From the NCBI RefSeq assembly GCF_019320115.1, contig NC_089583.1, positions 77,935,739 to 77,999,738 of the forward strand: a DNA stretch of 64,000 nt, in the 5' to 3' direction. Positions 3,306 to 64,000 of this stretch are shown here, one piece after another (position 1 is the stretch's first letter; each line of letters begins with the position of its first letter). This DNA comes from Miscanthus floridulus (taxonomy: Eukaryota; Streptophyta; Magnoliopsida; Poales; Poaceae). Below the pieces are notes generated by a model. It was not told where the DNA came from. It was given only the letters and a program-made list of their open reading frames with translations, and did no database searches. Position numbers and translations under genes: made by a program.

Positions 3306-3775
3306 TGTGGGGTACCACCCCGGATACCCACGGCAGACCACATGGGCTACACTCCTAGGGTGGCCTAGCCCACAAGACGAAGCCTTGCGGAGCACGGCGC
3401 TGCTCGGCGCGCCCCGCAAGACACCGGAAAGATATCCTGAAGATACTACGAGATCTGTTAGGATACGTATGATCTCATGATTCTTGTAATCTGTTATTAC
3501 TTTCCGGTTATCTTCTAGATACAACCAACTTGTAACCCTGCCCCCCAGACTATATAAGGCGGGCAGGGACCCCCTCCAAACACACACAATATCATACGAA
3601 GCTAATACAATCCAACAGACCACAGGAGTAGGGTATTACGTCACACTGACGGTCCGAACCTGTCTAACTCTTGCGTCTCTGTTGCCTTCTTGTTCTCGAT
3701 TACACGCATCTCTGCCAATCAATCTACCTTCGTGGGATACCCCTTGGAGGATTGCCGACTGATATTCTGTCGACA
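3306..3775 (+). repeat. 5' LTR of Element 1
   Basis: This 470-bp copy matches 12838-13306. It begins TGTGGGGTACC and ends CTGTCGACA. A TATATAAG box lies at 3551-3558, about where a transcription start in the LTR would need it. The two LTRs differ at many scattered positions by eye, so the insertion is not recent. Confidence 0.9.
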
Positions 3776-8010: not shown

Positions 8011-8640
8011 TCCTTGAAAAGCTCCAGATATGTATTCTCCACTCCATAATGAATGAAGTTTTTGTCACCATAATTTGTCTCCATTATTTTTCCATTACAG
8101 TTTAATCTCCATTTGTGGTCGCTAGCTCTACGCTACTCCTTAACAAACTCCAATAAGTGATCTCCATAAACGCTCCACCACGTTTCTCCATATCTCCAAG
8201 ATATTTCGCCAACCGCTGAGCAGCACACGTTCCGCTCTATGTTCTTAAGAAAAAACCTAATCTCCGATCTCTCCCTACACGTGCGATGGGCTCCGCGCTC
8301 TGCGTTATAGGTGGTCGGTTGTGATTCCTTGGTCATGTCTGTTCCTCCTACACGTGCACGGGCTCCGCGCTCGATGTTATGGAATATGGGCTAGCCAAGG
8401 CCAAGAGCTCAGTAACGAACTAACTACTCGGACGCTACTTATACCATGTATAATCGCGTTAGACACTACAATGATTTTTCACCGAAACACTGACAAACTG
8501 CATAAACATGCACATGCCACTTTACAACATTTATACACATACATTAATATTTGTTTGCGCCATCGTGCGTTTTAACTATCCTCTCTAGCTGTTACAGATT
8601 ACTCTCCGAGCAGGTCATTATGTTTGGCCCTCCCCGTCCA
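8011..8640. other. spacer between pol and antisense ORF of Element 1
   Basis: No reading frame of substance was found. The segment reappears in reverse orientation at about 63370-64000, sharing strings such as CCAAGGCCAAGAGCTCAGTA (with one or two changes). It is therefore a conserved non-coding part of this retrotransposon family. It contains a short duplicated motif around the string CACGTGC..GGGCTCCGCGCTC at 8278-8302 and 8350-8374. Confidence 0.7.
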
Positions 8641-8649
8641 CCTCGCCGA

Positions 8650-11600
8650 ACAAGTCGATGTCTCCTGGTCAGCCTCTTCGCCGCATCCTCCACCTCATCT
8701 TCCAGCTCCTTGCTGCTTCGTCGCACCAGTCCCTCTGGCGAGTCCGACCCCCATCGCTCGCAGATCGATGGTAGGGTAATGAGACTGGACTACCGCCAGG
8801 GCATGGGTCATGGTGGAGACAGTGGCATCGCGGTTGAAGGTTTTGAAGTTCTCCCACACCGCCTTGAACCTGTCGATGATGGTGTCCGGACGAGGCGGTC
8901 CTATCGTTGGGCTGAGGAGCTGCCTCCATGTCGATGTAGTCAAGCACCGACCTAACACTAGCCACCACGGCATCGAGCTTTCGCATCTGGGTTTGCGCCT
9001 CTAGCTCCAGCATGTCGAATTGGACCTTGATCCTTTGACGGTATTCTGCAAGCACCGAGAAGATCCTTCAAGCGAATAAGTCACTTAAGTAACAACTCCG
9101 ACCATGAACTACTCATCTTTTAGCTCCTCGGTCGGTTTCTCTGTGCGCCTAGACACCTTCTCCTCCTCTTGGAGTTGACCGATGACCTGACGTAACTAGC
9201 CGAGCTCCGCATCTTGCTCTACAAAAGTGACGATCGTCAGCAACATTAAAGCTGTTCGGCAATACAGAACAAGTTCACCGATCCATAGTACCTTTTTCTG
9301 CTTGGAGAGGCTTCTTAGCTGCTCGGAGCTACCCTGTAACTGCTCAAACACGGTCGCCTAGTTGCCCGGATAAGGCCCCCTTTTGGTATTCCAGATCCCG
9401 CGCGTTAGATTCGGCAAGATCCCGCTCGCGCTGGGCCCTCTGGACATTTTTCTCCATAAGCTTCAATGCCTCTTTCAACTTTGTGTTCTCCTCAGCGAGG
9501 GGCTCCATCCTCTTGATCAGTTGTCACCATTGTTCGGCAGTTCGTGCCATGCCTTACAAAAGCAACAAGATTATGAACTCCAATCTCCAACATCAAAGAC
9601 GAACATTGATGATGCAATACTAACCTTGATCTGCTTCATGGCTGTGGAAAGGGTGGACTCTAGCCTCTTCATCTCCCTGGTGGTGTCCTCCTCTTCCACG
9701 ACCACCACTTAATCACCCCACTTGTGGAGGATTCAGACGACTTGAGATCATACTTCCTCATGCTCAATCTCTTCCCCCTCGTCCTCCTCCGCAGCTGGTG
9801 GCACCACCTGGGGGCTCGGGGCCGCACAGCGTGTCCGACCATGCCCTCTGACGTTTTAGGGAGTGTTGCCTACTCCTCTAGCACCACCGGCTTCTTCACT
9901 CTAGACTCTAGCATGGCGGCGGCAACTCCAGCGTCCACCTCCGAAGACCCGGTGGCTCTCGCCGTTGCCCCTGGCGTCGCCGTCGACTGCTGACGACGCC
10001 TAGCCGTTCTCTACTGCCAAGTCCATCCGCAGCGGTGGTTGACTCCTCCGCAGGCCACCGAGTGCCCAGGGATTCCGGGATGGGGTCTGCCCACATTGTC
10101 TCCGCGCCGAGACTGGCCCCCGGTTATTCGCTAGTTTGGATGGATAGATTCAGATCCTTCGTATGCCTCACTCTACATTAGATTAGCTCGTCAATCGCCA
10201 CAACTATAAGGATCTAACAACAAACTTAATTCAAGGCAAGGATACTTACACGTTGGTCTCCCGGTACATGGTTTTGAACCGGCGCTGCCTCCCTGAACTC
10301 CCAGGCATGGCTCTAGGATCAACCCGCGTGCCCTGGGCTAGAGGTCTCGTGGCCCTAGCCATCGGCCTCTCCTCTGCCTGTCGCTCGGGGACTTCCTTCG
10401 CCTATTGCTCGGGGACTTCTTTCGCCTGTTGCTCAGGGACTCCCTCCCCTCCTTTCGATGGCACCTCGGCGCGTGTGTTGCGTGGCAGCACCTCAACGCT
10501 CAGAGGAGGAGCTACTGGAGCCCCTGTCGTCGTCCGACCACTCGGACATCGCCGCACTCTGCATTCGAGTGGTCTGGTCACCGCCAAGTGAGATGTCGCC
10601 CGGCTTGTGGGGAGCTACACCCGCTATCTTCCTCTTCTTCCGGGTCGGCTCATCTATCGCCGCCCTTTTCCTCTAGACTTTCTCTAACACTGGGGGGGAC
10701 TCTCTGTCCGATCAGCGCCTATGCCTCCGGACTCCGGCAAGGCGCTGATGGCACCCTCCTCAGGCTGAGTTGTTGGCCTGGGCATTCACTGCCTTTGGCC
10801 AATCACTCCTCGGCACGCCCTGAGAAGTACGCCGCTCATTCCTACGAATAGATCTTTCCACAAGTAAATCAATTCACTGCTCAGCAACGATACAGGATAA
10901 AAAGCATTAGGAACAAAATAGTTGAGATTTTACCTAAGGAGGGGGGTTCGTGCAGTTGAAGGCTCTTGTCTACCCTTGCACGCTGAACGACGCGTTCGGA
11001 GTAAATAGTTCATCTGCTCAGCATATTACATCGTCTCTCGATAGCCTCTCTATCCCCTCCCAGGTGCCATCAGTGTCCCCCTTGAATCAAAGCCTGTGTG
11101 GGCCCTCTCCTTGTAGGGTTGGACGCAGGCACACTATGAAGCTCGCCGCCACCAGTCTACCGTTCATCTTCACGCCCTTTATCAGGCCGAGAAGCTCCTT
11201 CACCTGATCTATATCACCACTGCTCGGCTTCTCCGACCAGCTCTTCTGGTTTTCTGGGACAGTGGTCGACGTCGCAGCAGATGGCAGGATGGCTCTACTT
11301 CATGTAGAACCACCTAGCATTACACCCTTTCAGTGAGGTCTTCAGTGGTACAGTGATGTACTCGCCTGCCATCCCATCGTGGAGTTGCAGATACATGCCA
11401 CCAACCACCCTAGAACCGCCGCTGCCCTTCTTCTTCAGCCAGAATAGGTGACAGAAGAGATTGAAGTGGGGAAGAATCCTGAGATATGCCTCACAGAAAT
11501 GGATAAAAATCGAGATGTGCAAGATGGTGTTTGGGTGGAGATTGCACAGACTAACTCTCCAGAACTCCAACAGATCCCGCAAGAAAGGATGAACAGGAAC

Positions 11601-12837: not shown

Positions 12838-13306
12838 TGTGGGGGTACGACCCCGGATACCCATGGCAGACCACATGGGCTACACCCCTAGGGATGGCCC
12901 AGCCCACAAGATAAAGCCTTACGTTGCACGGCGCTGTTCGGCGTGCCCCGCAAGACACCGGGAAGATATCCTAAAGGTACTACGAGATCTGTTAGGATAC
13001 GTATGATCCCATGATTTCTGTAATCTGTTATTACTTTTCTGGTTATCTCCTAAATCTAACCAACTTGTAACCCTGCACCCCAGAACTATATAAGGTGGGC
13101 AGGGACCCCCTCCAAACACACGCAATATCATACGAAGCCAATACAATTCAACAGACCACATGAGTAGGGTATTACGTCGTGCTGACAGTCCTGATCCTGT
13201 CTAACTCTTATGTCTCTGTTGCCATCTTATTCTCGATTACACGCATCTCTGTCAATCAATCTACCTTTGTGAAATATCCATCAAAGGCAACGATATTCTG
13301 TCAACA
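12838..13306 (+). repeat. 3' LTR of Element 1
   Basis: This 469-bp copy of the LTR at 3306 starts TGTGGGGGTACG and ends CTGTCAACA. The sequence just before it, GCTCGGGACTAGC, is in the polypurine-tract position and also precedes the 3' LTR at 41139 as CAGGGACTAGC. A TATATAAG box is preserved near 13087. Confidence 0.9.
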
Positions 13307-22669: not shown

Positions 22670-23066
22670 TGTCAGTCCTGACAACGGCGATGTACACCGG
22701 CGGCGAGGACAAGAGCTCAGTGAAGAACTCAACACAACACAAACACACACGATCACTTGGACTCGAGAGTTTGGTGCTGTGAACAACTGAGCAGCGTTTT
22801 ATGTATATTGCTTCTCCTTTTATTCTGTGAATACAAAGAGCAGGAACGCTCAATGGCCAGCCGCGCATCGCGCTACGAGCACGTCCATCCCCATGCCCAC
22901 GATGCCGCTGAAACGCCGGTCATCCCATGGTCATGTGCGAGCTATTCTCGCCATGCCCTCCTACGCGCACGGCAGCCACATGTTGGTGCTCGTGCGCATG
23001 CAAACTAACTGAACAGATAAACATGCATGCATCTACCAACTAAAATGTGCACAAGGTTTACTAACA
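22670..23066 (-). repeat. 3' LTR of the copia element
   Basis: The copy begins TGTCAGTCCTGAC in plus orientation and ends TTTACTAACA. It matches 27525-27921 closely, with only scattered differences by eye, so the insertion is younger than the gypsy Element 1. The purine-rich GGCTTAGGAGGAGA on the minus strand just inside it is the polypurine tract. Confidence 0.9.
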
Positions 23067-23078
23067 AATCTCCTCCTA

Positions 23079-27524: not shown

Positions 27525-27925
27525 TGTCAGTCCTGACGACAGCGATGTACATCGGCGGCGAGGATAAGAGCTCGGTGAAGAACTCAACACAACACAAACA
27601 CACACGATCACTTGGACTCGAGAGTTTGGTGCTGCGAACAACTGAGCAGCGTTTTCTGTATATTGCATCTCCTTTTATTCTGTGAATACAAAGAGCAGGA
27701 ACGCTCAGCGGCCAGCCGCGCGTCGCGCTACGAGCACGTCCATCCCCATGCCCACGATGCCGCTGAAACACCGGTCATCCCAGGGTCATGTGCGAGCTAT
27801 TCTCGCCATGCCCTCCTACGCACACGGAAGCCACAGGTTGGTGCTCGTGCGCATGCAAACTAACTGAACAAATAAACATGCATGCATCTATCAACTAAAA
27901 TGTGCACAAGGTTTACTAACAAGCA
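27525..27925 (-). repeat. 5' LTR of the copia element
   Basis: The plus-strand copy begins TGTCAGTCCTGAC and runs to about 27921-27925. On the minus strand the LTR end is followed by the primer-binding-like TTGGCATCAAAGC, similar to the 3' end complement of initiator tRNA-Met. Confidence 0.9.
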
Positions 27926-36516: not shown

Positions 36517-38011
36517 TGTTGGTGTGAAAAGTGACCAACTAGTAAATATTTATAGTTTTGTCGTACGTTGTGATCGGATGTGGCCTAGCACTCAATGACA
36601 CAGGGTTTATACTGGTTCAGGCTACGTGCCCTACGTCCAGTTTGAGTCGGTCGGTGACTTTATTCCTGAGCCCAGGTGCTCAAAGTTTGCTGTGGGGTTA
36701 CAAACAAGAGAGAGTAAGATGGGGGTATCAGAGGTCCGATCGGACTCCGGACCGAAGGGCCAAGAGTGACGGGAGCTCCGACGTGCGCTAAGTGTTCGAA
36801 CATATGCTTTGTTTGGCTTTAGAGTTCTAGAGCCAAGCAGAGAAAATCGGAGTGATCCGTTTGTTGTTTGTTGGAATCGTTTATGTGAATCGATTGTGTT
36901 CTTTTTGGAGAGAGCGCATCCCCTTTTATAGATGAAGGGGGCGGCTTTACAAGAGAGAGAGTGTGAGAGAAAGAGAGTGTGTGTGCTACCTAGTCTTGTC
37001 GCCCACGCTGTCGGGTACAAGGTGGTTTGTCGGCGCCCATAATATTGTTGACGCCCAGATATATGTGGTAGGCTCCATCATCCTCTTCTAGTATGGCAAA
37101 TATCGGCGCCTACCATACTGTAGGACAAATGTCGACGCCCACAACATTGTTCGCGTTCTGATATGTCTGAAAGGTTGCAGAGCACCCTTCTGATATGGCC
37201 TGACAGTACTGGCCTACAGGTGTGTAGGGTACGGCCCTCGGTATTGCGGTTGACTTGAGCGCCCTGTCTTACTTGCTCCGCCTGTTTCTCTGGGTCCTTA
37301 TCGAGTGGGCGTCCCCATTCGGTTGTTTCCCAGTTGGCTCCGACTGCGCCGGTCAAAAAAGAGTTGTAAGCAGAGGCTCGGTGTACCCCCGATCGGAGAA
37401 GCAGGCCGGAGTCGGAACGGAGCGTCGTCCCTCCTTGGCTAGGCCTTCCGATCGAAGAAGCAGGCCGGAGTCGAAAGCGAGCGTCGTCCTCTCCTTGGCC
37501 AGGCCTTCTCGTCGGAGAGGCGGGCTCGAGTCAGAAGCGAACGTCGTCCTCTCCTTGGCCAGGCCTTCCGGTCGGAGAGGCGGGCCAGAGTCAAAAACGA
37601 GCGTCGTCCCTCATTGGCAGGCCTTCCGGTCGATGAGATGGGCCAGAGTCAGAAGTGAGTGTCATCCTCTCCTTGGCCAGGCCTTCCGGTCGGTGAGGCG
37701 GGTCGGAGTCAAAAGCGAGCGTCGTCCTCTCCTTGGCCAGGCCTTCTAGTCGCTGAGGCGGGCCAGAGTCGGAAGCGAGCGTCGTCCTCTCCTTGGCCAG
37801 GCCTTCTGGTCGCTGAGGCGGGCCAGAGTCGGAAGCAAGCGTCGTCCCTCCTTGGCTAGGCCTTTCGATCGAACACTAGATCGCCTTCTGGCCTGTCATT
37901 AGGTATTTTGGGCCGGCCCAGGAGTTACGCGTCGTTCGCAACGTCGTCTACTGGGCTGAGCTTTCGCTGGGAAGCAGGTCCATGAGGGACCCCGGGTTTA
38001 TGAACCCAACA
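36517..38011 (-). repeat. 3' LTR of Element 3
   Basis: The plus-strand text begins TGTTGGTGTGAAAAG and ends TGAACCCAACA, giving inverted termini TGTTGG/CCAACA over 1495 bp. The next bases to the right, read on the minus strand, are AGGGGCTCC, a polypurine tract. The outer third contains ACACAGGGTTTATACTGGTTC, a recurrent motif of grass gypsy LTRs. The partner LTR is absent. Confidence 0.7.
37394..37869. repeat. 60-bp minisatellite, eight units, inside the LTR
   Basis: Eight tandem units of 57-60 bp share CGTCGTCCTCTCCTTGGCCA and GGCCTTCCGGTCGG(A/T)GAGG. Most units are exactly 60 bp, so an open frame runs through them on the plus strand from about 37255. The repeat protein this would make is almost certainly not real. 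Confidence 0.9.
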
Positions 38012-38335: not shown

Positions 38336-38528
38336 TCGGTTGGAGACTGAGCATCTTGGTACTCTTTCCTAGGGCCGCAGACTGCTGTTCAGGGGTGTTC
38401 GCCCAGTGTTTGTCCCGCCCGTGACCTGCGCGGTCGGTTGATTTCCTGAGTCAGTGTCGGGCGACCTGAGCCCCTGAGCCCCATTGGGCTCGGTAGGGGT
38501 CCGTCGTTCGTGACGGGGTCAGCATAGC

Positions 38529-38914
38529 TATGGGGGATATACCCTCGGATACCACAAGATGGTACATGGGCCGCACCATCCAAGGTGGCCCGGTCCGTAA
38601 GATCGAGGCGTGCACGGCAAGATTACAAGTTGTACTAGATATTGTAATAGTACCAAATAGGATACTTTACTTGTAACCCTCCTCCTTTAGAGTATACAAG
38701 GAGAGGCTGGGGTCCCCCTCAGAGATGACCTCAATCAATACAGAATAATGAGACACAGGACATAGGTATTATGCCAACACGGCGGCCGAACCTGTATAAA
38801 TCTTGTGTCTTGTACCTCTGTAACCATCTGGTTCCTGATTACACGCACCGTCTACCAATAATCTACCATCATGGGCATACCCCTAGATGAACTGCCGACC
38901 ATATTTCGTCGACA
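38529..38914 (+). repeat. 5' LTR of the small nested element
   Basis: The copy begins TATGGGGGATATAC and ends TTTCGTCGACA. It is nearly identical to the copy at 41139, so this is one of the younger insertions in the window. Confidence 0.9.
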
Positions 38915-40620: not shown

Positions 40621-41138
40621 GCGACTGGCAACTCACATACAGTTGGGATATTTTTTCTCCTTTAGACCTTGCTATAAGGCTCATACCTCACCTTCCAGCA
40701 AGCTCGGGGACTACATCGGTACGATGCACCTGTCGGTGCATCTCGTATCGCCTGTACGACGATTGGATTCTCAACTTAACTAGAAATTCTTTTTAGACCC
40801 TGGCACCACGTGCCTATGTCACCTACTATCAGGCTCGGGGACTAAGTGGGCACACTTCACCTTGCGGTGAATGTGTTTGTTTTATCGACCCCTACGCCTC
40901 TGATGATCAAAGATGCTATGCTTCAAGACACCCTTATGTTTCTTCACAGAAACCCAAGTGGGCACACTTCCAAGGTCGGAAATCTTTTTCTTTCTTCTTA
41001 AGAGCACCATACATTCTTCGAACAACCTACTTCTCCAATGACAACGGTGGTTGGAGATGTCAAGAACTCAAGCCTCACTCTTCAGGGGAAGGTTAAAATA
41101 GTGTGTCGCATCAGAATACATGGCGCTCAGGGACTAGC

Positions 41139-41525
41139 TATGGGGGATATACCCCCGGGTACCACAAGATGGTACATGGGCCACACCATCCGAGGTGGCC
41201 CGGCCTGTAAGATCGAGGCATGCACGGCAAGATTACAAGTTATACTAGATATTGTAATAGTACCAAATAGGATACTTTACTTGTAACCCTCCTCCTCCAG
41301 AGTATACAAGGAGAGGCAGGGGTACCCCTCAGAGATGACCTCAATCAATATAGAATAATGAGACACAGGACGTAGGTATTACGCCAACACGGTGGCCAAA
41401 CCTGTATAAATCTTGTGTCTTGTGCCTCTATAACCATCTGGTTCCTGATTACACGCACCGTCTACCGACAATCTACCATCATGGGCATACCCCTAGATGG
41501 ACTTGCCGACCATATTTCGTCGACA
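41139..41525 (+). repeat. 3' LTR of the small nested element
   Basis: The copy is preceded by CAGGGACTAGC, the polypurine-tract position, and followed by the target duplication ATAGC. Confidence 0.9.
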
Positions 41526-43268: not shown

Positions 43269-45263
43269 TGCCCGACGCACTCGCCTGCTCCAATTGCTTC
43301 TCCTTCGCCTTCACCGCGCGTAGCGCCGAGCCACAGCCGCCCTCCATTTCCGACCGAGCATCGCCGTCGTCGTGCATGCTCGCCACTACAAAAACACATT
43401 GCCCAATTCGTCAACAGCTTCGTCATGATCCCCTCTACCACCTCCACCGTTCAATCGAGTCAATTGAGTCTTGGTAAGCGGGTTTTCGTCAATTCTTCCA
43501 CCGCCACCATGGCGGGACCTCACCGGAGCTGGCGCTCCATGTGGCCCACCACCACCGCAGCCTTACCATCCCTTCTACCCCCTACACTAGCTACTGTGAG
43601 CACTGTTGAAGCTCGTAGGGTCACCATTTAGGGCTGCGACGCCGTCGTCTCACCAGAGCCGGTCGAGCCGTGGCCGAGCGCCGCCATGGCCATCACCACC
43701 CCCTCTTGCTGTGGTGATAGCCAAAATTGATGGCACCGCTTGATGCACATTGATGAGGCGAGCACTGAAGTGCCGCTGGACTCGCCGAAGAGGCCACCGG
43801 CGACGAGCTACGCCGCCATCTGTTCCTCCTCCCCTGCCTGTCTCACTGTCTCGCGAGCCCCTTTTGTCAGTCACCGATGTGGAGGCGGGAGCCAGCCTAG
43901 GCTGCGTCGTGGCTGGGCTGCGCTTGCGCGTGTTTGTGGGCCACCGAGTCTGACCGGGCCGGCCCAACAGTAGTCAGTAGTGTTTCAAAAATTGTTTTGT
44001 TTTATTTCTTTTCACAGATTTGTGTATAGATTCAAAAATGTGTATCTCCTAGTTGGCAGCTTCAAATGATGTGGTTCTAATATTGCTGAATTCATAATAA
44101 TGTCTAGTTTTTATTAAAAATATAATTTATGCTATGTTCTATTATGAAAATTGGAGTTGCTAATTATCTCTTTTAATCATGAAAGAAATAGGGGTAATTA
44201 TATCTTTTTCTATGTAGCTCCAAATGGCATGAAATTTTTATGGTGTATTGCTCATATCATGAATAGCTTGTAGTTAAATTTTCATATATTTTGGACACTG
44301 TATGTAGGAGATAGAAAATTATCTTATTTGCATGGGTGGATCTTGTGTGAATTTTTATAATTTTTCTATAGATCCAGTAAAGGTAAAAATTGATGAGTGC
44401 TGTTCTTATGCTAGAATGATGCTAGGAAAAATGAGAAATCTATTGCTTGACACTTTTCAATAGGGTTTGCTAATTATGCTAAAAATAGACGTGCCACCTG
44501 TTATTTTGGATACAGCAAGTTCTGCTTGTCCAATGGCTTTGAAATTTTTATGGTAGTCTATGTGAAGCAAGAGATAGCTACTGTAATTTTTGTAGATTTT
44601 TCTGAATAGTTTTACTATATATTGCTTTAATCACCTAATTAACTAAATAAATTTGAAAAGGATATTAAATAATTTATTTAGAAGCTGGCACTATACTTTC
44701 TAAGGTTTCTCTGGTATGCAAAACATATTGGTAAACTTGGTTTGGTCCGATTATGCTTTTGCATCATCATTAAATAATTAAGTTAGTAACCCTGTCATTT
44801 CTGGACAGATTCTAGGTTTACTAGAATTTGATTTGGTTAACGTAAGAATCATGCTTTGATGTTACAAATGATTTGTAGAGAATTTCATAAGCTTTCCAGA
44901 ATGTCCTCATGCAAGTCATTGGAATTGTAGAACTCTTGTTATGATTAAATTAAGGGACTACTTATGTGCATATGAAACTTTAAATGTAATTTAAGTGTGC
45001 CTTTACTATTTCTAAGTTTGTGGTAATGTTCCTAGGTGTTAGGCCTTTAACTGAAGATGAGCTTCTTTATCTTAGGTTATGCAAGTTAGGTAAGTTGATC
45101 TTGTTCTTCAAGTTAAGTTAGATACATGTTTTAAAGTGAATTGAATAGAGCTATTCTTAATCGGTAAATGAGTGTCCAGTGATGTTTTCGTTAAACACTC
45201 ACTGTGATTCATTTATCATGAGCATCATGTCATTCCTTATGCATCCATGATATTTATCTTGTG

Positions 45264-45480
45264 CACCAGCATGCAATAGGTGTATCGGAAGGAGTGACCC
45301 TACTGGAATTCGAGGAACCGAGCGAGCAGCAGCAGCCGAATCCGGAGGTTCAGGAGGTGCAGCTCTCAGGAGAAGTGCTAGACGAGGTTGCCGTTGAGTG
45401 CCCGGATCACCGTCCGTGCAACTTTATGAAAGGCAAGCCCCAAAGCATATTAAGCCTCCTAATTTCCGAAATGCAGTTAC
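45264..45480 (+). other. conserved short reading frame inside the LTR
   Basis: The frame reads LEFEEPSEQQQPNPEVQEV and VECPDHRPCNF without an ATG in its open part. The same frame exists in the 3' LTR near 55283-55500, where one CAG codon (45351) has become TAG (55362). It may be an upstream coding remnant or simply LTR sequence. No domain recognised. Confidence 0.35.
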
Positions 45481-46451
45481 AGTATTATTGTTATATATAT
45501 ATATATATTGTTGCATTAAGTTTAGGTGTTGGATGCAAACATTTGCTGCATTGGTTATCCAATCCTTGTCTAGATATGGTTACCCTGAATCCTATGTAGC
45601 TCAGGCTTGTGTAGTGCTTAGCCCTGCTTTAACATGGTAGAAGTCAGGTGATTTCCTGTCACCTGTGAGATATAGGAAGATACATATGGCATGGTTGGCT
45701 ATATTTGCTATCGTGGAAAAGAACCAGTCTTAATTTGAAATGAAGATCGAACGGAGGCTTGTCGGTTTGCAGTGACTCCGTCTGTGTTGCTTAAGGACTG
45801 AATCTTGGAGCCTTTCCTATTCATGTTGAATGCATGCCTCGCTCTTAGTTGGCCGTGTCCGAAGACCGACCGCGAAGCCGAGTAGCTCACCTCAGGCCGG
45901 GAGTCGATAAGTATAAAGTGCACCTCAGAAAGGAGCCATAGGCGTGAGTCCAAGGGTAGGTGATTTAAAAGTCCTGATCGTCCTGGCAGAAGGGTAATCC
46001 CTGAGAGTGCTGGCGCTGATCGAACCCACGAATTTGGTTCCTGAGTTGTTCCAAAGGTGACCCACGGCTACCCTTGCAAAGTATGCTAGGGTGAGAGTTA
46101 GGAATACCCCCTCAGCTGAGTTGTAATTCGATTCGAGTCGCCGTCTCTCCTGGTTAGTGAGAACTTGACGGGCTTATCTCCAAAGTAGATACACTAAATA
46201 ACCTAATGGTTCAGAAATGATGATATGATGATGATAGCCTTATTATACCTGCTATGGTTAATATTGTTTGCTCCTAATAAGTGAGTGCTCTAGTATAGGT
46301 GCTAATCTAGTGGACAGGTAAATGATGATAACTTGGTACTAAGATAAATTGGTTACTATATTCATAAAGCTCTTTTATGCAACTGTGTCAAGCTAGCCCA
46401 CCTCATAAGCCTTGCATGATCCTTGGTGTCTTTTATTTCTGGTTTTGATGG

Positions 46452-46506
46452 GTAAGTCTAGCTGAGTACCTTCTCGTACTTAGGGTTTATCTCCCACCTG
46501 TTGCAG
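46452..46506 (+). promoter_or_regulatory. hairpin with intron-like borders in the LTR (5' copy)
   Basis: GGTAAGTCTAGCTGAGTACC is followed by TTCTCGTACTTAGG, and then by CCTGTTGCAG directly before ATGACC. The GTAAGT and TTGCAG borders look like splice sites 55 bases apart. Between them CTGAGTAC and GTACTYAG form an 8-bp stem with a 6-base loop. The 3' LTR copy at 56462-56516 has the stem without mismatch. At 55 bases an intron would be unusually short for a plant, so a structural or regulatory role is as likely. Confidence 0.45.
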
Positions 46507-46939
46507 ATGACCAGTTCTACTTTGGTTGGTGCAAGTACTGCCTTCTCCTCGCTAGGGATGAAGACTAGACTGTTGGGCGTGGTCTCTCCTAGTTCTCGTA
46601 CCTGATGATGCTTTTGCTGGACATGACTCAGATCTGGCAATGTATTTGAAAACGATGAAGTTATGTACTAAACTATGTTGCTTCCGCACATTCGAACTTG
46701 GTTTGTAATATTTTAATTGAACTCTGATGGATGTAATCTGAATGCTACTTGTGAAATGTTGTAACAAATGATGTGTTGTGTTGAATCACTACGGTCTTGG
46801 TTTGTATGTCGAGAGTTGGTTGAAATCCTTCGTGATTTCTGGACTACCGGGATTATGGGAGCTTAAGTACAGGAATTTGATCGCTTCGGTGATTGCTTTT
46901 GTACTTACGTTCTTGTGATTTGGTCGGTTCTGTTACAGC

Positions 46940-46951
46940 TGGCATCAGAGC
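46940..46951 (+). promoter_or_regulatory. primer-binding site of the chromovirus
   Basis: TGGCATCAGAGC lies two bases after the LTR end and matches the usual initiator tRNA-Met site TGGTATCAGAGC except at one base. Confidence 0.9.
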
Positions 46952-47683
46952 AAGATTCAACATTAAACATGTCATTTGTGTATTTAAAACAAAAGTATTT
47001 GCGAAAATCCTAAATTAAATACTAAGTATTGCTAGTGGTCATATCCCTTATGCCCAAATAAGGACTCTTAGGTGGCTTATTAAAGTACTAACTTGGGGGT
47101 TCCTGCTTATTTCTGTTTCGTCGTCCATACGGCGTGCTATTGTATGGATGCCATCCACTTGGGTGGTAATGTATGGATCAAAATACCTCTATGCTATGGT
47201 AAGTGGGAGTTGTGAGAGCATGACCGTCCAACTATCGGTCTAGGGGAGAGTAGTTGTGGTTGCTCGCATACTTACATGTTCAATCATGTATCTATGAGAG
47301 TACTTAAAATGTGGGTATCTCTGACGGGTAGCTGTGATACTAGAGTATATGCATCGGGGGATGTATGTATGAAAGTATTTAGTTTACATGCCTTTTTGGG
47401 AAATTATTGGGCTGAAATGAAATTTTCTGCAGGTACACTAACAACGTATCGTTGTAGATTGACTAGCTACCGTATACGAGAGAACGTATGTATGCCACCA
47501 TATATTTCGCTAGCCTTTAAATTTTTCTAGGTTTGTGAGGACATACGGATCGTGCATGCATCATGTTCAAGCATACATGGCATTTCTTGCATTACTCCCT
47601 CCTTTAAAATATGATTGTCTCGACTAATTAAATTTTGTGTCCCTTAAATGATTCTCCCCTTACGTCGCAACTTTTTGCTACAG
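46952..47683 (+). other. untranslated leader of the chromovirus
   Basis: AT-rich leader of about 730 bp without a sustained frame. It ends in CTTTTTGCTACAG directly before the ATG of the first ORF, which looks like a 3' splice site and could mark a spliced leader. Confidence 0.5.
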
Positions 47684-48262
47684 ATGGCGCGCATGAAACT
47701 CACTGCTCGCAAGTCCGTGGGAGGCAGGGCACCTCATCACTAGTTAGCTCCTTGTGAGCCCCGTCCTGAGCCTACTAAGGCGGAAAGGCTGAGGGTAGAG
47801 CTGGCTCGGGTGACTACTGAGAGGAATGCGGCTCAGCACCGTTTGGAGCAAGTAATGCAGGAACAGGACCAAGAGACCCTAGAGGTTCAGAGGTTGATAG
47901 TTGCTCACCGCAACTGTGAATGCATGTTGATTCATGTGATGAACCAATGGAATGAAGCCTGGCACGAAGAGAATGTGTTGAGAGCGCGACAGGTGGAGCT
48001 AGAGCAGCAGTTGGTAGTTGCCGAAGAGTACAATGACCATCTCCATGAGGAGGTTCACCTATTACACAATCAACTTCACCCTCTCCTGCCACCTGATGAT
48101 GAGGATGAGATGGGCTCTGGTGTCATCATGGCTGAAGGTGATGATGGCATTGAGGTCAATGGACCTAAGGACGTTCCACCTGATGAGGAGGAAGATGAGG
48201 AGTTAGAGCCTGCTAGTGATGAAGATGGAGGAGAGATCTTCGACACTGACTCCGAGGACTGA
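47684..48262 (+). pseudogene. chromovirus ORF with a histone H3-like N-terminus, coiled coil and acidic tail
   Basis: The ATG at 47684 gives MARMKLTARKSVGGRAPHH, then TAG (47741), then LAPCEPRPEP. Histone H3 begins MARTKQTARKSTGGKAPR. Of the first 21 mature residues 14 are identical, including Lys4, Arg8, Lys9 and Ser10. K14 is Arg, and R17/K18 are both His. No histone fold follows. Residues about 35-130 are a heptad-rich helical region (ERLRVELARVTTERNAAQHR through VELEQQLVVAEEYNDHLHEE). The last 60 or so residues are very acidic (PPDEEEDEELEPASDEDGGE). The ORF is 192 residues and open apart from the one TAG, which stands where H3 has Gln19 and fits a CAG transition. It precedes gag by 420 bp. 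The function is unknown; an H3-tail mimic is an inference from the match. Confidence 0.8.
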
Positions 48263-48684: not shown

Positions 48685-49740
48685 ATGGCTTATAACCTTC
48701 GTCGTGGTCGTAGCATGGGAGATGAGGAACAACCACCTCCTCCACCGCCCACACCAGCTGAGCTAATGTAGATAGTTGTTGAAAGTCAGTGCATGCTAGC
48801 TGAGGCTATGCGCCATATGGCTAACCGTGATGACTGACATGTCCGCCAGGGACCCGAGTCAAACCAGTACAGCAGCTTTAAGGACTTCATGGACACAAAG
48901 CCTCCTATCTTTAGAGAGGCAGAAGAGCCATTACAAGCTAATGAATGGTTGAGCATGATAGAGCAAAGGTTTGGATTGCTCCGATTGACAGAAGGTATGA
49001 AGGCCTCGTATGTAGGACACCAGCTCCAAGGCCCTGCAGGCATCTAGTGGACCCATCATAGGACCACCTTCCCTGCAAACATTGAGATAGTTTGGGACCA
49101 GTTCTAGACAGCTTTCCAGGGACATTTTATCCCTCCTGGTCTCATGGCCATTAAGCATACCGAGTTTATGAAGCTAACCCAAGGCAACAAGAGTCTTAAT
49201 GAATACCTCCAGGCGTTCAACAACCTAGCAAGGTATGCTCCCGAGTTCGTGGATACTGATGCCAAGAAAATAGCTATCTTCAAGAGGGGGCTTTCCCCTA
49301 AACTGATGAAGTCTATGGGCAACTACAAGTGTGTCACCTTCAATGAGTTTATCAGTGACACCTTGACTCAGGAGAATAATGATAAGGTGTATGCTGCTTC
49401 CAAGACCCGTAAAAGAAACTTTGAGGTAGGTGCTTCTCAGTCTAAAGCACTAGTGGTATCCAAGACCCAGTATCGTCCACCCAATGCTAATGTCTAGTAC
49501 CGCCCACCTTAGAAGAAGAATCAAGCTAAAACTAGTTTCCGCAAGGGGTACACAATTTCCTTGCCAAAGAATACCTCTAGGCAGGGCAGCTCCAATGTTC
49601 CACCAGCAAACAGGCCATGCTAGAACTGTAACCAGCCTGGTCACTAGGCTAATAAGTGCCCCTATCCTTCCAAGCAGAATGCTCAGGGAAACATCCATTA
49701 GGGGCATGTTCACTATACTACTGAGGAGGAAATTCCTGCT
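48685..49740 (+). pseudogene. gag of the chromovirus
   Basis: The ATG at 48685 gives MAYNLRRGRSMGDEEQPPP. The capsid domain follows: FKDFMDTKPPIFREAEEPLQ, EWLSMIEQRFGLLRLTEGMK, then FMKLTQGNKSLNEYLQAFNN and RGLSPKLMKSMG, the order of the plant retrotransposon Gag family. The CCHC zinc knuckle (C-x2-C-x4-H-x4-C) is at about 49618-49660 with its Cys and His residues in place. TAG codons stand at two positions in and beside the knuckle (49621, 49645). Ten stops in this one frame (nine TAG, one TGA) inactivate it, while the frame itself has not shifted. Confidence 0.92.
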
Positions 49741-50205: not shown

Positions 50206-50985
50206 ATGTCTTCCCTGATGACTTGCCTAGGATTGCCTCCAAACCGTGATATAGAATTCAAGATAGAACTCATTCCAGGTACTGGCTCCTATTTCTCGAA
50301 GGCCTATAGAATGCCGCCCAATGAGTTGGCTGAGCTGAAGAGTCAGTTAAATGAGCTATTAAAGAAAGGTTTGATTCGGCCTAGTTCTTCTCCTTGGGGT
50401 TGTCCAGCTATCTTTGTGAAGAAGAAGGATGAGTCTCTGCGCATGTGCGTGGATTATCGCCCCCTTAATGCTGTTACCATCAAGAACAAATACCCTCTTC
50501 CTCGCATCAATATTCTGTTTGATCAACTCTCCAAAGCTAAGGTATTCTCCAAGATCGATTTGAGGTCTGGCTACCATTAGATCAAAATTCATCCTGAAGA
50601 TATACCTAAGACAGCTTTCTCTACTCGTTATGGCTTGTTCGAATACCTCGTCATGTCCTTTGGGTTGACAAATGCTCCGGCACACTTTATGTACCTGATG
50701 AATTCAGTATTCATGCCAGAATTAGGACAAGTTTGTCAGTCATGTTCATTGATGATATCCTTGTATATTCTCAGAATGAAGAAGAGCATACTGAACATCT
50801 GAGAATTGTTTTAACTCGGTTACGTGACAACTAGCTTTATGCTAAGTTCAGCAAGTGTGAATTCTGGTTGAACAAGATACCTTTTCTAGGTCATGTGTTA
50901 TCTGGTGAAGGAATTTTGGTTGACCCTACTAAGGTGCAAGAAGTCCTTGAGTGAAAGACACCTACTATGGTCACAGAAGTCTGAA
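50206..50985 (+). pseudogene. reverse transcriptase of the chromovirus
   Basis: RT blocks in order: [60 protein letters not shown], and [11 protein letters not shown] with a TAG at 50578. [20 protein letters not shown] follows and, after a frameshift near 50730, the FIDDIL catalytic motif and [20 protein letters not shown]. The two aspartates of the catalytic pair are encoded (near 50743-50748) but in the second frame. Stops at 50832, 50952 and 50982 follow. Confidence 0.92.
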
Positions 50986-51560: not shown

Positions 51561-53065
51561 CTGGCACACCTCCTTCATCCTGTAGTACTCCACAATATCA
51601 CTGTGGATTGCTCTCTTAGAAGTCGAATTATCGAACTCCAGAAGACTGATGTAGGTGTGTTTCATATCAAGCGGAAGATGAAAGATCAGGAGACCAAGCA
51701 CTTTAGGGTCGATGACAAAGGAATTCTCTAGTTTAATGATAGGCTTGTAGTACCCAAAGACAAAGAACTTAGAAATCAAATTATGGCTGAAGCCTATTCT
51801 TCTAAATTGTCTATCCATCCTGGTAGCAGTAAAATGTATCAAGATCTCAAGCTGTATTATTGGTGGACCAAGATGAAGAAAGAAATCGTAGCCTACGTGG
51901 CAAGGTGCGATAACTGTTGCAGAGTCAAGGCTATTCACATGAGGCCTAGATTATTGCAGCCACTCTCTATTCCTGGCTAGAAGTGGGAAGAAATTAGCAT
52001 GTATTTCATTGTTGGATTACCCACTACCAAAAAGGGTTGTGATTCTATCTGGGTTATCGTAGATCATCTAACTAAATCTGCTCACTTTATTTCGGTCAAG
52101 TCTACCTATCACCCTCACAATTATGCTGAGATTTATTTTCAACAAGTGGTACGTCTTCATGGTGTACCCAAATCCATTGTTTCAGATAGAGGACCGCAAT
52201 TCACGGCTCACTTTTGGGAGTGCTTACATTAGAATCTTAGCACTCATCTAATCCACAGTTCTGCCTATCATCCGCAAGCATCAGGACAGACTGAGCGTGT
52301 TAATCAAATTCTTGAAGACATGCTTAGAGCTTGTCTTATCTCTTGCAAAGGCTCTTGGGAGGACTGGTTGCCTCTCGCTGAATTCTCTTATAACTATAGT
52401 TATCAAGAGAGTATCAAAATGGCTCCTTTTGAAGCTCATTATGGCCGCAAGTGTAGAACTCCTTTGAACTGGGTGGAACCCGGGGAAAAAAGATTCTATG
52501 GTATTGATTTTGTAAAAGAAGCCAAAGAGCAAGTCCGAACTATACAGAAGAATATGACTGCCGCTCAGGCTAGACAAAAGAGCTATGCTGACAAGAGAAG
52601 AAAACCTATTAAGTTTGAAGTAGGTGACCATGTTTATCTGAAGGTATCCCCTATGAAAGGAGTAAAACGTTTTGGAATCAAAAGGAAGCTTGAGCCTCGA
52701 TATGTTGGACCTTGCCGTATTATCGAGAAAAGTGGAAGAGTAGCATATAAGCTCGATCTACCATGTGAGATGGGAGCTATATTCCTGGTATTCCATGTGT
52801 CCCAGCTGAAGAAGTGTCTCTGTATTCCTGAGGAAAGAATAGCAACAAGGAAAATCAACTTGAAATCTGATCTTTCTTATGAGGAGAAGCCCGTGCAAGT
52901 TCTAGATACTAAAGAAAGAGTGACTCGTACGCAAGTAGTTAAGTTATACAAGGTAGTTTGGAGTAATCATAGTGAACGGGATGCAACCTGGGAGCGGGAA
53001 GATTATTTAAAGGAAAACTATCCGGCTTTCTATACTGATTGGTACGCTTTCCAAATCTCGGTATG
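51561..53065 (+). pseudogene. integrase with C-terminal chromodomain of the chromovirus
   Basis: The zinc-binding part reads HPGSSKMYQDLKLYYWW and RCDNCCRVKA. In the core the first catalytic Asp, expected in MDFIVGLP, is Tyr (MYFIVGLP, codon 52002). VDHLTKSAHF, SDRGPQFTAHFWE and the ASGQTERVNQ block with the catalytic Glu are intact. The GPF/Y-type region (RYVGPCRIIEKSGRVAYKL) follows. The C-terminus (VVKLYKVVWSNHSERDATWE and EREDYLKENYPAFY) is a chromodomain of the plant chromovirus type. The last 745 bases, 52320-53066, are uninterrupted. TAGs at 51729, 51978 and 52230 stand where Trp or Gln is expected. Chromodomains in this position are thought to guide insertion to heterochromatin. Confidence 0.92.
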
Positions 53066-53076
53066 AGATTTTTCTA

Positions 53077-53088
53077 AGGGGGGAGGGC
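53077..53088 (+). promoter_or_regulatory. polypurine tract of the chromovirus
   Basis: AGGGGGGAGGGC directly before the 3' LTR primes plus-strand DNA synthesis. Confidence 0.85.
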
Positions 53089-56000
53089 TGTAACACCCTA
53101 GGTGTTTGGCTTCCACAAAATTTCATTTCATTTCATAAACATATGCATCATCCATGCACCATGCCATTATCACTGAAACATGCATATGCAACATTCGCAA
53201 TTCTATTGTTTCATACTTAATTTGCTTGTGAATGGTAGTAGTGAAACATGTGAATGCAACATGAGTTTCTCATACCTTGAAACATGGCAACATAGTAGGA
53301 ATGTGCAAGTTAAGCTTGCAACAAAAGTAATGAAACATGTGAAACATGGAATTGCAACAATTGAGTGAATTGATTGTTTTGTGCTTCATCACATGTGATC
53401 ATTAGAAATTGGTATAACAATTGTGTAAAGTGGTTGATCATGGTCTAATACACCTTAACTACACTTAGGGTAATTGTTTGGACATTGTTCATGTGGACCA
53501 AAATGACCAAATTGCCCTTTAGGAGAGGTTTGACTTGAATTGACCCTTAGAGTGCCACTGTTTGATTGATTCAAAAGACCAACTTAGAGACTTTGCATGG
53601 CTGTGCACTCTTTACCAAAGTTGTAGATAATTTACCAAGGAACAAAAGTTGTTTTATGATCATCTCATGAAAATGGCTAGAACATGCTCAAACATGGCCC
53701 ACAAGTCAGAATTCTATGCTGATTTCACACTTGGAAAAAATTGCTAAGTCATAATCCATTTTCAGTTTGATTGAGACACCTTTGGCTTGATACCACTCAG
53801 GATACAAGGTGAATTAGCTGTTGATGTCTAAATCAAAGTTGTAGCCCTACCATAGCTCTACAACTTTCATATACATTATTTCCACTAAATCATCATGGTT
53901 TAAGAGATTCATCACGCTTAAGTTCGTCTATCAGTCATCGTCTTTGAACACTGAAACGAAAAATTCAGACAACGGGCAGAGTTCACCGTGGCCGACCGGC
54001 GCAGGAGCTGCTCGCCGCGTGGCATGCATGCTCTACCGATGCCACCACGTCGCGCGTCCGCGTTCCAGAAGAAGGCCAACGCCTGCCCGACGCACTCGCC
54101 TGCTCCAATTGCTTCTCCTTCGCCTTCACCACGCGCAGCGCTGAGCCACAGCCGCCCTCCATTTCTGATCGAGCATCGCCGTCGTCATGTGCGCTCGCCA
54201 CTACAAAAACGTGTTGCCCAGTTCGTCAACAGCTTCGCCGTGATCCCCTCTACCACCTCCACCGTTCAATCGAGTCAATTGAGTCTTGGTAAGCGAGTTT
54301 TCGTCAATTCTTCCACCGCCGCCATGGCAGGACCTCGCCAGAGCTGGCGCTCCATGTGGCCCACCACCACCGCAGCCTTACCGTCCCATCTACCCCTTGC
54401 ACTAGCTACTGTGAGCGCTGCTGAAGCTTGTAGGGTCACCATTTAGGGCTGCGACGCCGTCGTCTCGCCGGAGCCGGCCAAGCCATGGCCGAGCACCGCC
54501 ATGGCCGTCACCACCCCTCTTGCTGTGGTGATAGCCAAAATTGATGGCACCGCTTGATGCGCATTGATGAGGTGAGCACCAAAGTACCGCTGGACTCGCC
54601 GGAGAGGCCACCAGTGACGAGCTACGCTGCCGTCCGTTCCTCCTCCCCTGGCTATCTCACTGTCTCGCGGGCCCCTTTTGTCAGTCGCCGATGCGGAGGC
54701 GGGAGCCAGCCTAGGCCGCGTCGTGGCTGGGCTACGCTTGCGCGTGTTTGTGGGCCACCGATTATGCTTTTGCATCATCATTAAATAATTAAGTTAGTAA
54801 CCCTGTCATTTCTGGACAGATTCTAGGTTTACTAGAATTCGATTTGGTTAACGTAAGAATCATGCTTTGATGTTACAAATGATTTGTAGAGAATTTCATA
54901 AGCTTTCCAGAATGTCCTCATGCAAGTCATTGGAATTGTAGAACTCTTGTTATGATTAAATTAAGGGACTACTTGTGTGCATATAAAACTTTAAATGTAA
55001 TTTAAGTGTGCCTTTACTATTTCTAAGTTTGTGGTAATGTTCCTAGGTGTTAGGCCTTTAACTGAAGATGAGCTTCTTTATCTTAGGTTATGCAAGTTAG
55101 GTAAGTTGATCTTGTTCTTCAAGTTAAGTTAGATACATGTTTTAAAGTGAATTGAATAGAGCTATTCTTAATCGGTAAATGAGTGTCCAGTGATGTTTTC
55201 GTTAAACACTCACTGTGATTCATTTATCATGAGCATCATGTCATTCCTTATGCATCCATGATATTTATCTTGTGCATCGGCATGCAATAGGTGTATCGGA
55301 AGGAGTGACCCTACTGAAATTCGAGGAACCGAGCGAGCAGCAGCAGCCGAATCTGGAGGTTTAGGAGGTGCAGCCCTCAGGAGAAGTGCCAGACGAGGTT
55401 GTCGTTGAGTGCCCGGATCACCGTCCGTGCAACTTTGTGAAAGGCAAGCCCCGGAGCATATTAAGCCTCCTAATTTCTAAAATGCAGTTACAGTATTATT
55501 GTTATATATATATATATTGTTGCATTAAGTTTAGGTGTTGGATGCAAACATTTGCTGCATTGGTTATCCAATCCTTGTCCAGATATGGTTACCCTGAATC
55601 CTATGTAGCTCAGGCTCGTGTAGTGCTTAGCCCTGCTTTAACATTGTAGAAGTCAGGTGATTTCCTGTCACCTGTGAGATATAGGAAGATACATATGGCA
55701 TGGTTGGCTATATTTGCTATCGTAGAAAAGAACCAGTCTTAATTTGAAATGAAGACCGGACGGAGGCTTGCCGGTTTGCAGTGACTCCGTCTGTGTCACT
55801 TAAGGACTGAATCTTGGAGCCTTTCCTGTTCATGTTGAATGCATGCCTCGCTCTTAGTTGGCCGTGTTCGATGACCGACCGCGAAGCCGAGTAGCTCACC
55901 TCAGGCCGGGAGTCGATAAGTATAAAGTGCGCCTCAGAAGGGAGCCGTAGGCGTGAGTCCAAGAGCTGGTGATTTAAAAGTCCTGATTGTCCTGGCAGAA

Positions 56001-56948
56001 GGGTAATCCCTGAGAGTGCTGGCGCTGATCAAACCCACGAATTTGGTTCCTGAGTTGTTCCAAAGGTGACCCACGGCTACCCTTATAAAGTATGCCAGGG
56101 TGAGAGTTAGGAATACCCCCTCAGCTGAGTTGTAATTCGATTCGAGTCGCCGTCTCTCCCGGTTAGTGAGAACTTGATGGGCTTATCTCCAAAGTAGATA
56201 CACTAAATAACCTAATGGTTCAGAAATGATGATATGATGATGACAGCCTTATTATACCTGCTATGGTTAATATTGTTTGCTCCTAATAAGTGAGTGCTCT
56301 AGTACATGTGCTAATCTAGTGGACAGGTAAATGATGATAACTTGATGCTAAGATAAATTGGTTACTATATTCATAAAGCTCTTTTATGCAACTGTGTCAA
56401 GCTAGCCCACCTCATAAGCCTTGCATGATCCTTGGTGTCTTTTATGTCTTGTTTTGACAGGGTAAGTCTAGCTGAGTACCTTCTCGTACTCAGGGTTTAT
56501 CTGCCACCTATTGCAGATGACCAGTTCTACTTTGGTTGCTGCAAGTACTACCTTCTCCCTAGCTGGGGATGAAGACTAGACCGTTGGGCATGGTCTCTCC
56601 TAGTTCTCGTACCTGATGATGCTTTTGCGGGACATGACTCAGATCTGGCAATGTATTTGAAAATGATGAAGTTATGTACTAAACTATGTTGCTTCCGCAC
56701 ATTCGAACTTGGTTTGTAATATTTTAATTGAACTCTAATGGATGTAATTCGAATGCTACTTGTGAACTATTGTAATGAATGATGTGTTGTGTTGAATCAC
56801 TATGGTCTTGGTTTGTATGTCGAGAGTTGGTTGAAATCCTTCATGATTTCCGGACTACCGGGATTATGGGAGCTTAAGTACAGGAATTTGATCGCTTCGG
56901 TGATTGATTTTGTACTTACATTCTTGTGATTTGGTCGGTTCTATTACA
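53089..56948 (+). repeat. 3' LTR of the chromovirus, internally deleted
   Basis: The copy starts TGTAACACCCTAGG and ends GGTTCTATTACA. Relative to the 5' LTR about 803 bp are missing at 54760. The deletion borders share CCGA (GCCACCGA and GTCCGATTATG in the other copy), which suggests slippage or end-joining. The hairpin at 56472-56493 is perfect. The host sequence of Element 3 resumes at 56949. Confidence 0.92.
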
Positions 56949-62679: not shown

Positions 62680-64000
62680 CTCCGCTACCATCGGTGAATT
62701 TGCTTTGCATTGTTGAACAGCCTTATTGTTGCTGACGACCGTTATGTTTGTAGAGCAAGATGCGGACCTCAATCAGTTGCATCAAGTCATCAGTCAACTT
62801 CAAGAGGAGGAGAAGAAGGCGTCTTGGTGAGTGGAGAAACTATCCAAGGAGTTGAAAGGTGAGTAGGTCATGGTCAAAGTTGTTGCTGAAGTGACTTCTT
62901 CACTTGACGGGTCTTCTCGGTGTTTGCAGAATACCGCCAGAGGACCAGGGCATAGTTCGACATGCTAGAGCTAGAGGCCAGAACCCAAAGGGGGAAACTT
63001 GATGCTATGGTTGCTGGGGTCAAGCCTATGCTCGACTACGTTGACATGGATGTAGCTCCTTAGCCCGATGACAGGACACTACATTCGAACACCATCATTG
63101 ATAGATGCAAGGTGGTGTGGGAGAACTTCAAGAGCTTCAACCAAGATGCCACTATCTCCGCCATGACCCATGCCCTAGCGGTAGTCTGGTCTCATTACCC
63201 TGCCATCAATCTTCAAGCGATAGGGGCTAGATTTGCTAGAGGGATGGGTGCGATGAAGCAGCAGCAGCTGGAGGATGAGGTGCATGATGCGGAGAAGAAG
63301 CTGGCCGGCGGCATCGATCTGTTCGGTGAGGTGGACGGAGATGGCCAAACACAATGACCTGCTCAGAAAGTATCTTGTAAAGAACATCTAGAGAGGATAG
63401 TTAAATGTGCTAGGGCGTAGACAAATATTTATGTATGTGTATAAATGTTGTAAAGTGACATGTGCTTGTTTATGCAGTTTGCCAGCACTTTCGGTGAAAA
63501 ATTGATGTAGTGTTAAGCCTAACGCAATTATACGTAGTATAAGTAGCGTCCGAGTAGTTAGTTCATTACTGAGCTCTTGGCCTTGGCTAGCCCGTATTCC
63601 ATAACATCGAGCACGGAGCCTGTGCACATGTAGGAGGAATAGACGTGACCGAGGAATCACAGCCGACCACCCATAACGCGGAGCGTGGAGCCCGTAGCAC
63701 ATGTAGGGAGAGATCGGAGACTGGATTTTCTCCAAAGAATACAGAGCGGAACATGTGCTGCTCGATGGTTGGCAAAATATCTTAGAGATATTTTAGTATG
63801 GAGAAACATGGCAGAGCTTTTATGAAGATCACGTATATTTGTTAGAGTTTGTTAAGGAGTAGCTTAGACCTGGCAACCGCAAATGTAGATTAAACCAGTA
63901 GTGGAGAAATAATGGAGACAAATTATGGCGACAAAAACTTCATTTATTATGGAGTGGAGAGTACATATCTGGAGCATTTCAAGGATAGAAACGTATAAGG
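62680..64000 (-). mobile_element. partial Tat-type element of the Element 1 family
   Basis: From about 62680 the plus strand is collinear with the reverse complement of Element 1 from about 9300 down to about 8000. First comes the additional ORF C-terminal part (plus-strand frame near 62755-63357, with VWENFKSFNQDATISAMTHA and QQLEDEVHDAEKKLAGGIDL), then the spacer. Pol of this copy would lie beyond the window end. The left boundary abuts gag of Element 3 without LTR ends, so it is a truncation or recombination joint. It is clearly diverged from Element 1, so not a recent duplicate. Confidence 0.8.
62755..63357 (+). pseudogene. additional ORF fragment of the terminal Tat copy
   Basis: Helical, charged sequence with LHQVISQLQEEEKKAS near 62775-62820. 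Beyond several stops lies the open frame 63112-63357 (VVWENFKSFNQDATISAMTH, IGARFARGMGAMKQQQLEDE). It matches the minus-strand frame at 8669-9270 in Element 1 and is more open here than there. No catalytic motif was seen. Confidence 0.65.

Follow-up and report, generated by a model that had tools for sequence, protein, structure and literature searches.

An additional open reading frame, ORF0, has been described in Retrosat2, RIRE3, RIRE8 and other Tekay (Del) retrotransposons of grasses (Gao 2012, PMC3485330), and the extra ORF at the 5' end of sunflower Tekay elements is predicted to encode a nuclear protein combining disorder with helices (PMC11728184). The ORF0s described in the accessible text of Gao 2012 are ~10-34% alike between families and are predicted to encode enzymes, whereas the ORF0 reported here consists of a histone H3 tail followed by a helix. 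The word "histone" is absent from that text where it deals with ORF0, and is likewise unused in the available portions of the sunflower report, of Vicient and Casacuberta 2020 (PMC7264820) and of a review of gene capture in plants (PMC13317346).

The present ORF0 lies in a window of 64 kb, by which we mean the whole stretch of DNA that was analysed, and a sequence-only reading had drawn attention to it as a possible mimic of the H3 tail. The H3 resemblance itself is not new: Steinbauerova et al. in 2011 reportedly found that part of the extra ORFs of Poaceae chromoviruses are partially similar to the histone H3 gene, and the abstract is said to give the similarity and a likely transduction and to be silent on the tail, its lysines, selection and mimicry. 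Those ORFs probably belong to the same family or a sister family and show the same H3 similarity as the window ORF0, and the novelty hoped for in the sequence-only reading is correspondingly lower. Beyond this resemblance, the papers listed in searches of open-licence literature included no further report, and none of their titles dealt with a plant retrotransposon that mimics histones. We tentatively propose, with a little less than even confidence, that the ORF0 tail, a near-copy of the H3 tail apparently kept by selection, works as a histone mimic that engages readers or writers of H3K4 and H3K9.

The host element and the structure of ORF0

The window element is oriented on the forward (+) strand throughout, and comparison of the window with itself by blastn delineates a 5' LTR at 43269-46937 and a 3' LTR of ~3.86 kb at 53089-56948 (TGTAACACCC...TTACA), which pair in two segments, 44747-46937 with 54758-56948 (96.5% over 2193 columns) and 43269-43947 with 54084-54761 (92.2% over 679 columns). 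The 5' LTR is without its start, roughly the first kilobase, and has ~800 extra bases at 43948-44746 that are missing from the 3' LTR. From its sequence, TGGCATCAGAGC at 46940-46951 is a likely primer binding site, presumably of the initiator tRNA-Met type, and AAGGGGGGAGGGC at 53076-53088 is a likely polypurine tract. ORF0 (192 codons plus stop; 47684-48262) is situated between the truncated 5' LTR, which ends at 46937, and gag-pol, which starts at ATG 48685 with a gag fragment (48685-49494; Pfam Retrotrans_gag, E=1.3e-9 in 49144-49494). A reverse transcriptase fragment (50206-50577; Pfam RVT_1, E=9.8e-6, under the curated cut-off) and a chromodomain closing the integrase (52899-53027; Pfam Chromo, E=3.4e-4, also under the curated cut-off) follow, so that gag and reverse transcriptase of Ty3/gypsy type are recognisable.

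The chromodomain sequence ERDATWERE carries a Tekay-like TWExE motif, described for Tekay chromodomains in PMC3350952. LTRs of more than 3 kb, a Retrosat2-like LTR start (TGTAACACCC in the window element, TGTCACACCC in Retrosat2) and an extra ORF upstream of gag are all present, as in the Tekay-type chromoviruses related to Retrosat2, and the anatomy fits that of a Tekay (Del/Retrosat2-type) chromovirus with an ORF0. Elsewhere in the window, direct repeats of ~390-434 bases and 90-95% identity form three additional pairs (22670-23067 with 27525-27922, 38525-38914 with 41135-41525, and 3306-3734 with 12838-13271) that are probably LTRs of other elements; a 1.3 kb repeat is found as inverted copies with 82% identity at 7996-9282 and 62690-64000, and related units, ~83-86% alike, form a tandem array at 37389-37872.

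The H3-like tail, a Met followed by residues 1-21, occupies 47684-47749. As the sequence-only reading had counted, 14 of the 21 post-Met residues are identical to H3 (A1, R2, K4, T6, A7, R8, K9, S10, G12, G13, A15, P16, L20 and A21). When the window was searched with whole H3 by tblastn, the ORF0 tail was the sole match with E<0.1 (E=0.005; next 0.65), and when PDB chain sequences were searched by phmmer with the database relative P0013, H3 tails ranked first (best E=3e-4) with Met aligned to Met. Alignment, tblastn and PDB search alike thus place the N-terminal tail sequence of H3 in ORF0, and judged by the PDB search and by its recurrence in every copy sampled, the likeness exceeds chance. 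The match was claimed to stop exactly at the end of the H3 tail and to pass straight into a coiled coil; instead it ends at A21, within the H3 tail, and the predicted helix begins only at residue 32. A feature on which that reading was silent is the premature stop, as codon 20 of the window ORF0 (47741-47743) is TAG. The frame opened by ATG 47684 begins with MARMKLTARKSVGGRAPHH, the stop and LAPCEPRPEPTK (LAPCEPRP being the residues after the stop in the window copy) and closes with a stop at 48260-48262. Since ATG 47684 would yield a peptide of only 19 residues, the window copy of ORF0 is dead.

Beyond the tail, alignment reveals a Pro/Arg/Glu-rich linker, predicted to be unstructured (47750-47776), a predicted helix of 100 residues that is likely a coiled coil (47777-48076), and an acidic C-terminal part predicted to be disordered (48077-48259; pLDDT ~50). 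The prediction derives from an AlphaFold2 model of P0013 built with 30 sequences (mean pLDDT 77.1, pTM 0.41), in which residues 1-31 are unstructured, residues 32-131 form the helix with pLDDT ~98 over most of its length, and the C-terminal part is again unstructured; we infer that the helix may form an oligomeric coiled coil. Pfam assigns ORF0 to no family above its cut-offs and finds no histone domain, and a histone fold is absent by the same evidence, with one helix predicted. This bears out the view that an H3 tail is fused to a non-histone module, and the missing fold together with the fused module rules out a histone pseudogene. The pairing of a basic tail with an acidic disordered end in one protein also brings to mind a histone chaperone, in which the tail would fold onto, or be masked by, the acidic end while ORF0 handled real histones; given that Pfam has no match above cut-off and no globular chaperone fold is predicted, we regard this as very unlikely.

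Conservation of the tail and selection

The genome searched for further copies is assembled into 2420 contigs totalling 2.68 Gb; apparently 19 of the contigs are chromosome-sized. ORF0 queries returned 9,836, 10,420 and 10,923 first-look candidates; the 150 scored for each query all matched, and from these candidates the copies likely number in the thousands. A total of 78 ORF0 loci were read, 77 of them distinct (L005 is the same as L004 and was dropped), which with 20 short pieces elsewhere gives 97 copies, the window included; 66 of the 97 were recovered by queries devoid of the tail (6 + 40 + 20) and 30 by a query containing it. The identical ORF0 copies of L004 and L005 (C4 ~55.30 and 55.32 Mb) are 13.7 kb apart and perhaps reflect a tandem or duplicated insertion.

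The sequence-only reading had allowed for a one-off resemblance, which is ruled out by the presence of the H3-like tail in all 97 genomic copies, including two with partial deletions (L107 is missing 12 tail codons and L129 residues 18-23). K4 is retained in 97/97 copies and K9 in all 96 that can be scored, where it is never Arg. Among the 77 distinct loci, K4 (77/77), K9 (76/76), L20 (77/77) and A21 (77/77) do not vary, and P16 (75/76), S10 (72/76) and T6 (72/76) seldom do; R8 is kept in 65/76, the rest having His, and R2 in 55/77, the rest having Cys or His. The position of K14 is occupied by Arg in 72/76 and by Lys in 3, that of K18 by His in 76/77, that of T11 by Ala in 52 and Thr in 18, and that of Q5 by Leu in 50 and Arg in 19. 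The 20 short pieces agree, with K4, K9 and R14 each in 20/20.

Relatives in public protein clusters present the same picture. A search with ORF0, its stop entered as X, gave 219 relatives at E<=1e-3; among the best 120 of these, 31 extend upstream of residue 31 and all 31 have the H3-like tail, the other 89 having later in-frame starts and being uninformative on this point. Searching with the tail region gave 40 proteins, 14 of them new, with the tail present. K4 is found in 45/45 and K9 in 44/45 of the database relatives, the exception being P0092 with Asn at 9. Searches of viral contigs and genome contigs yielded no ORF0 relatives, and where such a tail was sought in longer proteins (218-693 aa), none of 160 candidates reached E<=1.

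Changes were assigned to individual sites by parsimony along a FastTree phylogeny of ORF0. Fourfold sites lying outside CG and CHG contexts provided the neutral reference, which comprises few positions (36 A/T and 11 C/G), and the mapped events are incompletely independent. Outside methylation contexts, residues 1-21 have accumulated 12.5 amino-acid-changing events where 50.8 are expected and 28.5 silent events where 28.8 are expected (binomial p=3e-5). The codons contribute unevenly, residue 5 accounting for 7 of the 12.5 amino-acid changes and codons 11 and 19 for 14 of the 28.5 silent ones. With codons 5, 11 and 19 removed the counts become 5.5 vs 48.8 and 13.5 vs 24.4 (p 0.001-0.002), and with codons 11 and 19 alone removed p=0.03. 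The H3-like tail is thus apparently retained by selection, with the strength of the test depending on which codons are included.

Individual columns largely conform to this. The expectation that Lys4 would be constrained is borne out by 0 amino-acid changes against 4.6 expected; the companion expectation for Lys9 and Arg8 is borne out for K9 (0 vs 4.1) and fails for Arg8, whose column is unconstrained in this test. Arg2 is lost in 22/77 copies and Arg8 in 11/76, to Cys or His, matching CpG decay. The coil and the acidic part are under constraint similar to that of the tail, which therefore does not stand out within ORF0; on these rates the entire ORF0, tail included, resembles a gene that is being maintained. 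A chance resemblance, or a useless relic carried along by hitch-hiking, would suit the stop-broken window copy, the weakening of the test to p=0.03 once codons 11 and 19 are dropped, and the neutral rate of amino-acid changes within methylation contexts (162 vs 168.3), which is like that of dead copies losing CpGs. We nonetheless consider it highly improbable, as the tail is in 97/97 copies and amino-acid-changing and silent rates differ in every version of the test.

A different role for the tail would be that of a basic stretch serving nuclear import or nucleic acid binding, its H3 origin being irrelevant to present use. The tail is rich in Arg and Lys, and the replacement of K14 and K18, now mostly Arg and His, keeps the charge wholly or partly; other Tekay 5' extra ORFs are moreover predicted to be nuclear (PMC11728184). 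That no Lys-to-Arg change has occurred at K4 or K9 has p ~0.11 by arithmetic from site rates, and this alone is compatible with a mere requirement for positive charge. However, K4 and K9 are Lys wherever they can be scored and never Arg, and the uncharged residues A7, S10, G13, P16, L20 and A21 show few or zero changes outside methylation contexts, and we rate the basic-stretch explanation as rather unlikely.

The leader and the origin of the tail

Conserved islands resembling splice signals punctuate the leader upstream of ORF0, which is ~745 bases long and was aligned from 37 flanked copies. The first contains a GTAAGT (47199-47204) that resembles a 5' splice donor and is invariant in the 37 copies, gaps uncounted; the second contains an acceptor-like TTTTCTGCAG (47423-47432), which is not invariant, its CAG varying; and a third conserved block (47640-47683) ends in TTTTTGCTACAG, resembles a 3' splice site and abuts the ATG. 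Changes per A/T site are 0.50 in the interval -530..-470, 0.36 in -275..-190 and 0.12 in the last 44 bases, against 1.42 in the upper leader (-720..-530) and 0.93 and 0.61 in the stretches between islands; the C/G sites of the 44-base block are less constrained (0.86 vs 2.02). These islands suggest that ORF0 may be made from spliced RNA. We know of no precedent for such splice-signal-like islands in Tekay elements.

The block at 47640-47683 also holds a TAA and, 36 bases upstream of ORF0, an in-frame ATG at 47648, both of them invariant. That conservation spans a stop codon as well as an upstream ATG agrees with a 3' splice site. When the 36 bases preceding ATG 47684 are analysed as coding sequence, amino-acid-changing transitions number 4 (24.6 expected) and silent ones 20 (18.7 expected), a paucity of amino-acid changes such as translation from the upstream ATG would give, and a stop lies directly before the second ATG in 11/77 copies. 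The codon pattern before ATG 47684 is therefore compatible with initiation at the upstream ATG, in which case the tail would be buried.

In the intron-bearing H3 genes of this genome the first coding exon has 24 codons, and A21, where the ORF0 match ends, lies two codons before the end of that exon. In L071-L073 the first H3 coding exon directly follows an acceptor-like cag abutting the ATG, and DNA similarity between ORF0 and H3 genes begins at the ATG base (86% over 51 bases by blastn in the best pairs, with L069/L070). Blastn of the leader against H3 loci gave no convincing match (best E=0.005 over 23 bases, in one copy and one gene). The simplest reading of these sequences is that the first coding exon of H3 was captured from a host gene. 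Ranked by identity across 66 bases, the closest H3 gene is intron-bearing (H3.3-type) for 57 of 77 copies and intronless for 3, with a tie for 17. Codon identity is 10/17 with L069/L070 (6.5-6.7 expected, p 0.05-0.07) and 7/17 with the best intronless H3 genes (~3.2-3.6 expected, p 0.02-0.04), and as both counts are weak, codon choice settles neither the donor H3 gene nor descent itself. Four host H3 genes, L060-L063 (C16:87331879, C15:2561175, C17:76135952 and C2:28696265), have a stop or a lost start and are likely pseudogenes.

Possible functions and comparison with known systems

Silencing of plant transposons proceeds largely through H3K9 methylation. The features kept in the ORF0 tail (K4, K9, S10 and their spacing) characterise an H3 tail that can be methylated, and two acetylation sites are gone. 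Its probable use would be as a decoy against silencing that engages readers or writers of H3K4 and H3K9. In such a scheme a host H3 gene would have contributed its first coding exon, by capture, to become the tail of ORF0; removal of Met, which a start with MA favours, would leave Ala1 free as in H3; the coiled coil would display the tail in several copies; and host enzymes would methylate its K9, and K4 also. Lacking the acetyl sites K14 and K18, the mimic would be methylatable and not acetylatable, and as a decoy it could hold methylating enzymes or readers and so weaken silencing during the life cycle of the element. The mimic reading is weakened by the uneven codons and by the upstream frame. 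Counting against it too is residue 5, a position of H3 that is contacted by chromodomains; in ORF0 it is mostly Leu or Arg and shows the clearest amino-acid excess in the tail (7 vs 1.1 expected), a variation that may mark two subfamilies or a change driven by a partner.

The partner of the tail could alternatively reside in the element itself, with the methylated tail serving as a ligand of the integrase chromodomain and tethering ORF0 to integrase, thereby guiding or restraining the integration complex. Besides the H3-like tail, the window element also encodes a chromodomain for which that of Clr4 ranks first among PDB sequences (1g6z, E=2e-4), and for plant type II chromodomains the partner is described as unidentified in the accessible text of PMC6317226 and PMC3350952. 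The same sources report that most of the aromatic cage is absent from type II chromodomains, and other Tekay elements are described with a chromodomain and, in the available text, without mention of an H3-like ORF0 (PMC3485330, PMC11728184). We accordingly find a role as ligand of the element's own chromodomain doubtful. A fuller version of the mimic proposal, in which a captured H3.3 exon is still spliced to the leader and supplies a multivalent, non-acetylatable tail that is methylated by the host and acts both as type II chromodomain ligand and as decoy for H3K9 readers, strikes us as distinctly improbable.

If the histone-mimic reading holds, the retention of an H3 tail by an ORF0 family for which a single genome gives about ten thousand first-look candidates (150 scored per query) points to mimicry of the very substrate of silencing. 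Its copies would also constitute a natural experiment on the important positions of H3, in which K4 and K9 are kept and K14 and K18 are dispensable, and would offer a candidate ligand for type II chromodomains, for which PMC3350952 and PMC6317226 leave the partner unnamed.

Like ORF0, influenza NS1 (ARSK; PMC10208167) and the disputed ORF8 of SARS-CoV-2 (PMC10833455) are non-histone proteins of a parasite with a motif of the H3 tail. The motifs described for these viral mimics comprise 4-6 residues, whereas the likeness of ORF0 covers 21 colinear residues from Met1 and is located in a transposon. Capture and amplification of H3 by a mobile element has a parallel in a fungal hAT transposon (PMC6710886), where the H3 copies are borne on a DNA transposon and, with the exception of the original, are inactivated by RIP. 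In contrast to the fungal case, ORF0 has the H3 tail alone, as part of a fused ORF that has been retained.
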